From Leucobacter musarum subsp. musarum (GTDB lineage: Bacteria; Actinomycetota; Actinomycetes; Actinomycetales; Microbacteriaceae), in assembly GCF_001273845.1 (NCBI RefSeq), contig NZ_JHBW01000087.1, forward strand, positions 806,001 to 870,000: a stretch of 64,000 nt of DNA, given 5' to 3'. The notes below the pieces were generated by a model. The model had not been told where the DNA came from and made no database searches. It was given only the letters and a program-made list of their open reading frames with translations. Every line of letters starts with the position of its first letter. Positions within the stretch are counted from its first letter, which is position 1. Positions 7,726 to 34,902 of this stretch are shown in pieces. A program made the position numbers and the translations under genes.

Positions 7726-8097
7726 GGTGGAGCCGCGGGGAATTGAACCCCGGTCCACTTCGACGATTCCGTGCCTTCTACGAGCGTAGTTCGTGCAAGC
7801 GTTCTACTCGGCCCCGCACGTTGTCACGAACACCTCGTGCGACAGGCCCAGTTCCAGTAAAAGTCCCGATACGCCCTGAAACGCGACGCACCAGCAAGCC
7901 TCCTAAATGACGCCAGGAAACCGGGGCGGAGGCCCACCCGACCTGACGGACTCGGTCTCGTGCTTAGGCAGCGAGAGCGAAGTCGGTGCGCTTTACGTTT
8001 GCACCTATTGTTTGCGAAGGGCGTTTACGAGATAACTCCGCGTCCTCGGCCCGCTTCTCACAGTCTCAAAATCGACGTGTCGAAACCGATCGGCCCC
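7726..8097 (-). ncRNA. ssrA: tmRNA (transfer-messenger RNA)
   Basis: The 5-prime end (GGGGCCGAUCGGUUUCGACA, from 8097 downward) and the 3-prime end (T-arm GGGGUUCAAUUCCCC, then CGGCUCCACC) pair as the tRNA-like acceptor stem of a one-piece tmRNA of about 372 nt. The encoded tag reads ANVKRTDFALAA then UAA (8002 down to 7964), with the ALAA ending recognised by ClpXP. The genome gives ACC at the 3-prime end followed by G, so the terminal A of CCA must be added after transcription. With SmpB, made from the same strand nearby, it rescues stalled ribosomes and tags the nascent chain for degradation. Confidence 0.97.
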
Positions 8098-31793: not shown

Positions 31794-32372
31794 TTAGAAC
31801 TGGATGCGCGGCGGCTCCGAGATCGAAGCAATGTCTTCGACCTCGAAGAACACGCGCTCCGTGAAGCCCATGCCGCGGGCGAACAGGGTGTTCGGAAACA
31901 CCTGAATCTTCGTGTTGTACTCGCGCACGCCACCGTTGTAGAAGCGGCGCGACGCCTGGATCTTATTCTCGGTGTCGACGAGTTCGCTCTGCAGCTGCAG
32001 GAAGTTCTGGCTGGCCTGCAGCTGCGGGTACGCCTCGGCCACTGCAAAGATGCTCTTCAGTGCCTGCTGCATGTGATTCTCAGCAGCCGATGCCTCAGCA
32101 GGGCCCTGCGCCGAGATGGTCTCCGCACGCGCCTTGGTCACGTCGTCGAACACGCTCTTCTCATGCGCGGCGTACCCCTTGACGGTCTCGACGATCGCCG
32201 GGATCAGGTCGGCGCGACGCTTCAGCTGCACCGTGATGTCGCTCCACGCCTCATCGACGCGCACGCGCAGCGTCACGAGCGAGTTGTACGTCGCCCAGAC
32301 GTACCCGATGAGCACTACAAGCACGCCGACCACGACGAGCGTGGCAATCAATCCACCAGACATGGTTGGCAT
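31794..32372 (-). CDS. lemA: LemA family protein
   Basis: A 192-residue protein: one N-terminal membrane helix (residues 8-27) and a helical bundle outside, with YNSLVTLRVRVDEAWSDI, VQLKRRADLIPAIVETVKGY and RRFYNGGVREYN as family marks. Role is not established, though it is regularly paired with HtpX and suspected to act in membrane protein quality control. Either ATG 32372 or ATG 32363 could be the start; neither has a good ribosome binding site. Confidence 0.95.
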   Translation of the reverse strand: MPTMSGGLIATLVVVGVLVVLIGYVWATYNSLVTLRVRVDEAWSDITVQLKRRADLIPAIVETVKGYAAHEKSVFDDVTKARAETISAQGPAEASAAENHMQQALKSIFAVAEAYPQLQASQNFLQLQSELVDTENKIQASRRFYNGGVREYNTKIQVFPNTLFARGMGFTERVFFEVEDIASISEPPRIQF

Positions 32373-32735: not shown

Positions 32736-32812
32736 TGGTCCCCCCACAGGGATTCGAACCCTGACTGTGCCGATTTTAAGTCGGCTGCCTCTGCCAGTTG
32801 GGCTATAGGGGG
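32736..32812 (-). tRNA. tRNA with UAA anticodon (nominal tRNA-Leu), class I variable loop, CCA encoded
   Basis: A 77-nt cloverleaf: acceptor CCCCCTA (from 32812) pairs with TGGGGGG; D arm GCC...GGC; anticodon arm GCCGA-CTTAAAA-TCGGC, giving anticodon TAA at 32778-32776; variable loop only ACAGT; T arm CAGGG-TTCGAAT-CCCTG; discriminator A and encoded CCA (ending 32736). By anticodon it is tRNA-Leu for UUA codons, but leucine tRNAs normally carry a long class II variable arm, absent here. Confidence 0.9.
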
Positions 32813-32941: not shown

Positions 32942-34792
32942 CTACGCGTCGCCGAGGCGGGCGCGGAGCTCGGTCAGCTGAGCGGAGAGCGCGGCCGGAA
33001 CCCGGTCACCGAACTGGCCGAAGAACTCCTCAGTCAGGTCGGCTTCGGCGAGCCACGACGCGGGGTCGATCGCGAACAGCTCGTCGAGATCGCTCTGCGG
33101 CACCTCGATGCCGTCGAGGTTGAGCTCACCGGCTGCCGGAATCGTGCCGACCGCGGTCTCGCGACCCTCGACCGACCCCTCGACGCTGCGAATAATCCAG
33201 TCGATCACGCGCGAGTTCTCGCCGAATCCGGGCCACAGGAAGCGACCGTCGGCACCCTTGCGGAACCAGTTGACCTGGAAGATCTTCGGTGCGTTCTCGC
33301 CGAGCTCTTCACCCATCTCGAGCCAGTGGCCCCAGTAGTCGGCCATGTTGTAGCCGCAGAACGGCAGCATGGCGAAGGGGTCGCGACGCAGCTCGCCGAC
33401 GGTGCCCTCCTGTGCCGCGGTCTTCTCGGACGAGATGGTCGCTCCGACGAACACGCCGTGCTCCCACGACAGCGACTTGGCTACGAGCGGCACGTTGGTC
33501 GCACGACGACCGCCGAAGAGGATCGCGTCGAGCGGCACGCCGTTCTGCTCGTACCAATCCTGCGCGAGCGTCGGGGTCTGCTGAATCGGCACGGTGAAGC
33601 GCGAGTTGGGGTGCGCGGCGACGCGACCCGACTCGGGCGTCCACGACTCCCCCTGCCAGTCGGTGAGGTGCGCGGGCACCTCATCGGTCTTGCCCTCCCA
33701 CCACACGTCGCCATCGTCGGTCAGCGCCACGTTCGTGAAGATCGTGTTGCCCCAGAGCGTTTCGACCGCGACGGGGTTCGTCGACTCGCCGGTGCCCGGT
33801 GCGACGCCGAAGAAACCGGCCTCGGGGTTGATCGCGTAGAGACGCCCATCGGTGCCGGGTCGCAGCCAGGCGATGTCGTCGCCGATGGTCTCGACCTTCC
33901 AGCCCGGAACCGTGGGCTGCAGCATCGCGAGGTTCGTCTTGCCGCATGCAGACGGGAATGCCGCCGACAGGTGGTACGCCTTGCCGCTCTCGGTGTTGGT
34001 CAGCTTGAGCAGCAGCATGTGCTCGGCGAGCCAGCCCTCGTTGCGGCCCATGACGCTCGCGATGCGCAGCGCGAAGCACTTCTTCGACAGCAGCGCGTTG
34101 CCGCCGTAGCCCGAACCGTACGACCAGACCTCGAGGGTCTCCGGGAAGTGCGTGATGTACTTGGTGTCGTTGCAGGGCCAGGCCACGTCTTCCTGACCGA
34201 ATTCGAGGGGCGCACCCACCGAGTGCACGGTGCGTACCCACTCGCCACCGGGAAGAATGCCGTCCAGCGCATCCTGCCCCATGCGCGTCATGATGCGCAG
34301 GTTGAGCACGGCGTAGGGCGAGTCAGTGATCTCAATGCCGAGCTGCGTGATCGCGCCGCCGACGGGACCCATCGAGAACGGTGCGACGTACATGGTGCGT
34401 CCGCGCATCGAGCCGGCGAAAAGCGGCATGAGTTCGCGCTTCATCGCGTCGGGGGCGACCCAATTGTTGGTCGGGCCGGCGTCGGCCTCATCGACCGAGC
34501 AGATGAACGTGCGATCCTCGACGCGCGCAACGTCGGAGGGGTTCGAGCGAGCCAGGAAGCTCCCCGGGCGCAGGTTCTTGTTGAGCGGGATCAACGTGCC
34601 CGCTTCGACCATCTCGCCGGTGATGCGATTCCACTCGTCTTGCGAACCGTCGCACCAGACCACATACTCCGGCTGCGTCAGCTCGGCGACCTCGGTCACC
34701 CACTGCAGCACTTCTTCGTTGGTCGTCGTCGCGCCGCTGCGAACGAGATCGGCAACCGTGTTCTCGGTATCGATGGTCTGGGTCAGTGCCAT
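32942..34792 (-). CDS. pckG: Phosphoenolpyruvate carboxykinase (GTP)
   Basis: A 616-residue enzyme of the GTP-dependent type. The kinase loop is [13 protein letters not shown], with [24 protein letters not shown] and [12 protein letters not shown] as further family motifs. It converts oxaloacetate to PEP and CO2, the entry to gluconeogenesis. ATG 34792 has GAGGAG 6 bases upstream; the open frame extends further but without support. It is divergent from a RamB-like regulator of acetate/gluconeogenic metabolism, whose product is a natural candidate controller. Confidence 0.97.
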
Positions 34793-34902
34793 GACGTGCT
34801 CCTCGGAATGTGACGCCGCCGGGCGAAGAACCGGCGACATGTCCATTCTGAGTGGGCCGTTCACCACCGATTCACCCTTTCACGCAGAAATTTTCGCCAT
34901 TT

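Follow-up and report, generated by a model that had tools for sequence, protein, structure and literature searches.

A UAA leucine tRNA of class I shape in Leucobacter musarum, probably a member of an armless lineage common to bacteria and phages

The window analysed here, a stretch of 64,000 nucleotides of the Leucobacter musarum subsp. musarum genome, carries on its minus strand a tRNA gene (32736..32812) that combines a leucine UAA anticodon with the architecture of a class I tRNA. In all likelihood, the product is a normal leucine tRNA from an armless lineage that phages share, and it is charged by the single leucyl-tRNA synthetase (LeuRS) of the host. The ordinary host LeuRS would attach leucine to the UAA tRNA by recognising A73 and a D-loop/T-loop core formed by A15-U48, G18G19 and A20a, the long variable arm being dispensable. 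In a portion of the host's phylum, the armless lineage would substitute for class II tRNA-Leu(UAA), and phages would bear the same lineage with other leucine anticodons. Judged by its sequence, the UAA tRNA is a leucine tRNA by identity and a class I tRNA by shape.

On the minus strand, ARAGORN identifies positions 32736..32812 as a tRNA-Leu(taa), and Rfam RF00005 matches positions 32739..32812 with 56.7 bits (E 1.4e-9). The gene is 77 nt long. Its acceptor stem (CCCCCTA/TGGGGGG) has 7 bp with C1-G72 and is followed by the discriminator A73 (32739) and an encoded CCA. The anticodon stem GCCGA/TCGGC surrounds the loop CTTAAAA, which places UAA (32776..32778) at positions 34-36, and the T-arm is normal. 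The variable loop ACAGT (32764..32768) is 5 nt long, and its U48 faces A15. A variable loop of 4-5 nt with 7/5 acceptor/T arms is characteristic of class I and is found here; a class II variable arm would have at least 10 nt. The D-arm, GCCC/AACTGGCAG/AGGC (32787..32803), is of the leucine type, with a 3-bp stem, a C13.A22 mismatch, A14, A15, G18G19 and A20a; a paired 13-22, usual in class I tRNAs of the host genome, is absent. All stems are perfect in the sequence parse. ARAGORN, Rfam and the sequence parse confirm the structure given in an earlier note on this DNA (UAA in CTTAAAA, a perfect 5-bp stem, the 5-nt ACAGT and C1-G72), and the combination of class I architecture and a leucine UAA anticodon that the note describes is borne out by ARAGORN and the parse.

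The gene is flanked upstream by a GTP-type phosphoenolpyruvate carboxykinase gene (32942..34867, minus strand; Pfam PF00821/PF17297) and downstream by a LemA-family gene (31794..32372, minus strand; PF04011). Because a carboxykinase match lies near the tRNA in 18 of the 29 relatives' loci and a LemA match in 3 of the 29, the position of the tRNA gene is partly conserved. Elsewhere in the window, a tmRNA gene with the tag ANVKRTDFALAA occupies positions 7726-8097 of the minus strand.

The UAA tRNA is, as far as found, the sole dedicated UUA reader of the host. The host assembly comprises 124 contigs with a total of 3.44 Mb and has a completeness rating of 100%. An RF00005 search detected 47 tRNAs in it, and ARAGORN, applied to the loci of all 47, named five leucine tRNAs with the anticodons UAG, CAA, CAG, GAG and UAA. 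The first four are class II tRNAs of 83-86 nt, and only one UAA-anticodon tRNA was found among the 47. No class II tRNA-Leu(UAA) was detected in the host genome by RF00005 with ARAGORN or by a class II pattern search, and hence the UAA tRNA is not a second UUA reader. The earlier note had proposed a second, non-canonical reader of UUA, a view left unsupported by the lack of such a class II gene and by the other four tRNA-Leu, none of which has UAA. The same note had named the absence of a class II tRNA-Leu(UAA), together with normal charging by LeuRS, as findings that would speak against it, and the absence is what was observed as far as the host genome was searched.

UUA is indeed as rare in the host as the earlier note had expected. 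In genes picked by simple, heuristic open reading frame rules, it accounts for 4 of 18,897 codons in the window (in 4 of 54 genes) and for 30 of 115,950 codons in a 400-kb sample (in 22 of 307 genes). bldA of Streptomyces is a regulatory tRNA that reads the rare codon UUA, and the scarcity of UUA in the host would suit a similar role, in which a few genes with UUA codons are activated through the level of the tRNA. However, such rarity is expected at the host G+C content of 66-67%, and a bldA-like regulatory function is considered quite improbable.

The identity elements of the UAA tRNA point to leucine. A73, A15-U48, a D-loop ending in GGCAG and an unpaired 13.A22 are found together in all five host tRNA-Leu and in none of the 41 other unique tRNAs, in a comparison of 46 unique tRNAs that leaves unused two rows with a badly parsed T-arm (one tRNA-Met and tRNA-Phe). 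A 2023 review lists A73, A15-U48, G18G19 and A20a as important in E. coli tRNA-Leu, rates the long arm as not crucial and describes variants without the anticodon arm and the variable arm that are still active (PMC9976931). All of these determinants are present in the UAA tRNA. Among the class I sequences parsed, A73 is found in 139/139 and A15-U48 also in 139/139, the search pattern having fixed A15 for 80 of them and U48 for none. Plain identity is uninformative, the nearest other host tRNAs being tRNA-Glu(CUC) with 51/64 and tRNA-Lys(UUU) with 58/73 identical positions. The host genome has one LeuRS frame over the cut-off. The UAA tRNA very probably carries leucine, and we infer that LeuRS is the enzyme that charges it.

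A specialised or recoding tRNA, charged by a different synthetase so that UUA stands for an amino acid other than leucine, would also account for the class I shape. The acceptor end of the UAA tRNA begins with C1-G72, in contrast to G1-C72 in the other host tRNA-Leu, and C1-G72 with A73 is shared with the three host tRNA-Pro. However, the 119 unique class I sequences divide into 103 with G1-C72 or G1-U72 and 16 with C1-G72, which is a local trait. The D-arm and A15-U48 fit tRNA-Leu but not tRNA-Pro, which has G15-C48 in the host. A proline anticodon has G35 G36, and the UAA tRNA has A35 A36; tRNA-Pro-like charging was rejected on these grounds. No synthetase or aminoacyl transferase was found among the eight neighbouring genes checked, which also argues against recoding. 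Recoding is very improbable; nothing points to the unexpected amino acid suggested by the earlier note, and the leucine determinants are retained. Two other candidates were rejected as well. A stop-codon suppressor does not apply, UAA being here the anticodon, which pairs with UUA, and an allo-tRNA with 8/4 or 9/3 acceptor/T-stems does not apply to a tRNA with 7/5 arms.

Codon alignments within the genus bear on the same question. When a stretch around LeuRS was compared with a same-genus genome, eight host UUA codons, in genes picked by the same heuristic rules, aligned with three CUG, three CUC, one AUC and one GGC. UUA therefore falls on leucine in 6/8 codons, against recoding, and on Ile and Gly in the other two, in its favour; eight codons are too few to stand alone. 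For comparison, host UUG aligns with Leu in 348/403 cases and CUG in 1725/1917.

Class I tRNA-Leu(UAA) is conserved and under selection. Over 119 unique class I UAA sequences, including that of the window, pairing is intact in 2367 of 2380 stem cells, and both-sided, compensatory changes are seen in 18 of the 20 stem pairs. Because the class I pattern occurs in 89 of 100 relatives and the stems change in a compensatory manner over these 119 sequences, the class I UAA structure is more than a product of chance. A decaying or unexpressed gene that has lost its long arm would be consistent with the scan for sigma-70-type promoters and terminators around the tRNA gene, which gave no match. The perfect stems, the encoded CCA, the compensatory changes and the single copy, for which no substitute UUA decoder was found in the host, all argue against decay, leaving it with a nearly negligible probability.

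The lineage appears to be marked by C13.A22 and by a mostly conserved AGU at positions 46-48. Among the 114 unique class I sequences with a 5-nt loop, U48 is found in 114, A46 in 102 and G47 in 104. The pattern used to find 80 named loci fixed C12, C13, A14, A15, G18-A22 and the anticodon, so that agreement at these positions is built in for those loci and for most of the 119 unique sequences. C13.A22 is therefore quoted from the other 59 sequences, which were found without fixing the D-arm and comprise 29 from relatives and 30 from phylum loci (30 of 82 class I matches). The mismatch is present in 59/59 of them, whereas it is present in 0/28 class II sequences (28 called and parsed of 30 class II loci). 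This favours one lineage over recurrent arm loss among class II genes, which seems unlikely. Class I tRNA-Leu(UAA) would thus form one armless lineage of single origin.

The two classes of tRNA-Leu(UAA) are distributed in a nearly exclusive manner, as counted by eye from tables of matches to patterns distinguished by the spacing between the anticodon and the T-loop. Among 100 relatives, the class I pattern was found in 89, the class II pattern in 4, both in 0 and neither in 7, with reversed-pattern controls matching in 2/100 and 1/100 genomes. Among 396 genomes of the phylum, the corresponding numbers are 78, 227, 1 and 92. The class II search of the phylum genomes includes a few matches that are not tRNA-like, and its reversed-pattern control matched in 5/396 genomes; as these controls show, the patterns now and then match by chance. 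If the classes were independent, 44.7 phylum genomes would be expected to carry both; a single one of the 396 was observed (G210), and its class II match is, by eye, not tRNA-like. Because the genomes are related, probabilities calculated for this exclusivity are only a guide. The host's own family (f1) has class I in 6/6 genomes and class II in 0, and family f22 has class I in 11/14 and class II in 0; family f21 has class II in 11/11 and class I in 0. The armless tRNA appears to replace the class II form within part of the phylum, which the titles of most named loci identify as Actinomycetota.

The exclusivity is not strict. Among the 28 genomes of the class I named loci, where the reversed-pattern control matched in 5/28, the class II pattern matched in two. 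Rfam does not recognise the match in a cyanobacterium as a tRNA. The second match belongs to a metagenome-assembled genome (MAG) titled Rokubacteriota, which carries a class I UAA tRNA as well as a class II tRNA that is truncated at its 3' end; the latter lies at the end of another locus, in a second Gly-Cys cluster, so that both forms coexist in this MAG. Class I genes sit after tRNA-Cys, where E. coli has its class II leuZ, in MAGs with the titles Rokubacteriota (there with Gly as well) and Deltaproteobacteria. MAG positions with a class I UAA gene after tRNA-Cys, including Gly-Cys clusters, are L158:384-670, L180:1499-1655, L155:216-780 and L268:1203-1547. In a MAG titled Planctomycetota, the class I tRNA-Leu(UAA) also follows tRNA-Cys, at a distance of about 400 bases.

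The class I tRNA seems to need no special LeuRS, as it is found with both LeuRS types of the relatives. Relative to the host enzyme, the identity in these relatives, L500 and L501 among them, is about 61-100% for one type and about 46-53% for the other. The first type can be aligned over almost the full length of the 825-aa query with identities of 61% or more; the second matched it in separate parts and occurs mostly in open reading frames of about 950-1050 aa. The comparison of LeuRS type with tRNA class was counted by eye, and two genomes gave no LeuRS match at the limit applied. The class I tRNA accompanies either type (18 class I genomes have the second), and so does the class II tRNA (2 and 2). 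Accordingly, no association of the tRNA class with the type of LeuRS was seen among the relatives.

The meaning of UUA can also be read in Actinobacteria bacterium IMCC26103 (CP015604.1, titled complete genome; loci L439-L476), which has 38 tRNAs. Both of its UAA tRNAs and its CAA tRNA are class I, its UAG and GAG tRNAs are class II, and no class II CAA tRNA was found among the 38. The class I tRNA-Leu(CAA), which reads UUG, is 74 nt long. In alignments of 20 gene pairs between IMCC26103 and the host, with genes again picked by simple open reading frame rules, UUA falls on leucine in 109/195 positions and UUG in 63/118, alongside 63/113 for CUA, 47/77 for CUG, 91/145 for CUU and 31/67 for CUC. 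The comparison codon AUU falls on leucine in 39/221. By this measure, UUA is read as leucine in a genome that has class I UUA readers only, which speaks against recoding. UUA is also the commonest leucine codon of this low-G+C genome, with 3,109 of 12,207 leucine codons in 400 kb, and UUA and UUG together account for 5,181 of the 12,207, read by armless tRNAs. The armless lineage is therefore not tied to a regulatory role of the bldA kind.

Phages carry tRNAs of the same type. A BLAST search with the UAA tRNA matched 153 phage records, and among the matches listed all annotated ones are tRNA-Leu. Felix O1-like phages reach 82% identity over 74 of the 77 bases, and the match in one of them, wV8, is a class I tRNA-Leu(UAG). 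Nine further phage loci each have a class I tRNA-Leu with the anticodon UAA, UAG, CAA or GAG, and three of them also carry a class II tRNA-Leu; two phage tRNAs (L271, L274) were read one base off, and their entries for 15-48 and 73 were excluded. The phage tRNAs, from Felix O1-like, mycobacterial, Enterococcus, Bacillus, Pseudomonas and other phages, resemble the host UAA tRNA in being class I and in mostly having the same D-arm. They differ in that phages bear other leucine anticodons too, some also carry class II tRNA-Leu and some have another D-arm, as in the short tRNA-Leu(CAA) of phage Bonray.

Viral contigs were also scanned with the D-arm fixed and the anticodon and arm length left free, 80 loci being taken from at least 120 matching stretches. 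Among the matches listed, these loci hold 81 tRNAs with the D-arm, all class I, and 80 of the 81 have a leucine anticodon (46 UAA, 15 UAG, 13 CAA, 3 GAG, 2 AAG and 1 CAG). In the remaining one (L351:9348-9421), no clear anticodon is present, and ARAGORN reads no normal triplet. The D-arm thus goes with leucine anticodons in the viral sample listed, which again argues against recoding. Of 123 tRNA-Leu of at least 70 nt in the same 80 listed loci, 105 are short (no more than 80 nt) and 18 long. It is conceivable, though rather unlikely as a whole, that the armless lineage moves between bacteria and phages and has displaced the long-armed tRNA-Leu(UAA) in much of Actinomycetota, and that loss of the arm helps to escape toxins or nucleases recognising long-armed tRNAs while full LeuRS recognition is kept.

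The class II tRNAs encoded by E. coli leuZ and by Streptomyces bldA share with the UAA tRNA the anticodon UAA, A73, A14, A15-U48, a 3-bp D-stem and an unpaired 13.A22. The variable region of leuZ has 15 nt, however, as against 5 nt in the host UAA tRNA, and C13.A22 itself is a difference from the class II sequences parsed. Animal mitochondrial tRNA-Leu(UUR) likewise reads UUR without a long variable arm, but the bacterial UAA tRNA forms a full, well-paired cloverleaf, unlike its mitochondrial counterpart. The identity of human mitochondrial tRNA-Leu(UUR) is ascribed to A73 and A14 in a passage of PMC9976931. A short-variable-loop tRNA-Leu(TAG) is noted in a mycobacterial tRNA cluster in part of PMC6582537, and it is, like the UAA tRNA, a bacterial tRNA-Leu with a short variable loop. 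That tRNA, however, is an extra copy in the cluster, with a normal long-armed gene elsewhere, and the part concerned does not present it as a lineage or a replacement.

The earlier note took class II to be the form of all ordinary tRNA-Leu in bacteria. This premise agrees with review passages describing tRNA-Leu in this way (PMC9976931, PMC7609411, PMC4033280), but it fails for many of the genomes analysed here. A passage of PMC4033280 also calls bacterial tRNA genes surprisingly uniform. A part of PMC11541572 names tRNA-Leu-2, -3 and -5 of M. tuberculosis as long-looped, a wording that leaves room for a short-looped tRNA-Leu without saying so. No account of an armless leucine tRNA lineage was found in one open-access library, which lacks most subscription journals. 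If such armless tRNAs are leucylated as proposed, bacteria already provide a natural test of what LeuRS requires, and leucine tRNAs without the arm would be available for engineering. Work that assumes all tRNA-Leu to be class II, such as that on tRNA-targeting toxins or annotation rules, may then miss some.

Short tRNA-Leu genes also occur in larger arrays. In Cylindrospermum sp. NIES-4074 (L194:2790-3266), an array holds five short tRNA-Leu with the anticodons UAG, GAG, CAG, UAA and CAA, whose D-arms differ and some of which appear degenerate. An array of 26 tRNAs in a Chloroflexaceae MAG (L179) contains class I tRNA-Leu(CAA, UAA) beside class II tRNA-Leu(GAG, CAG).
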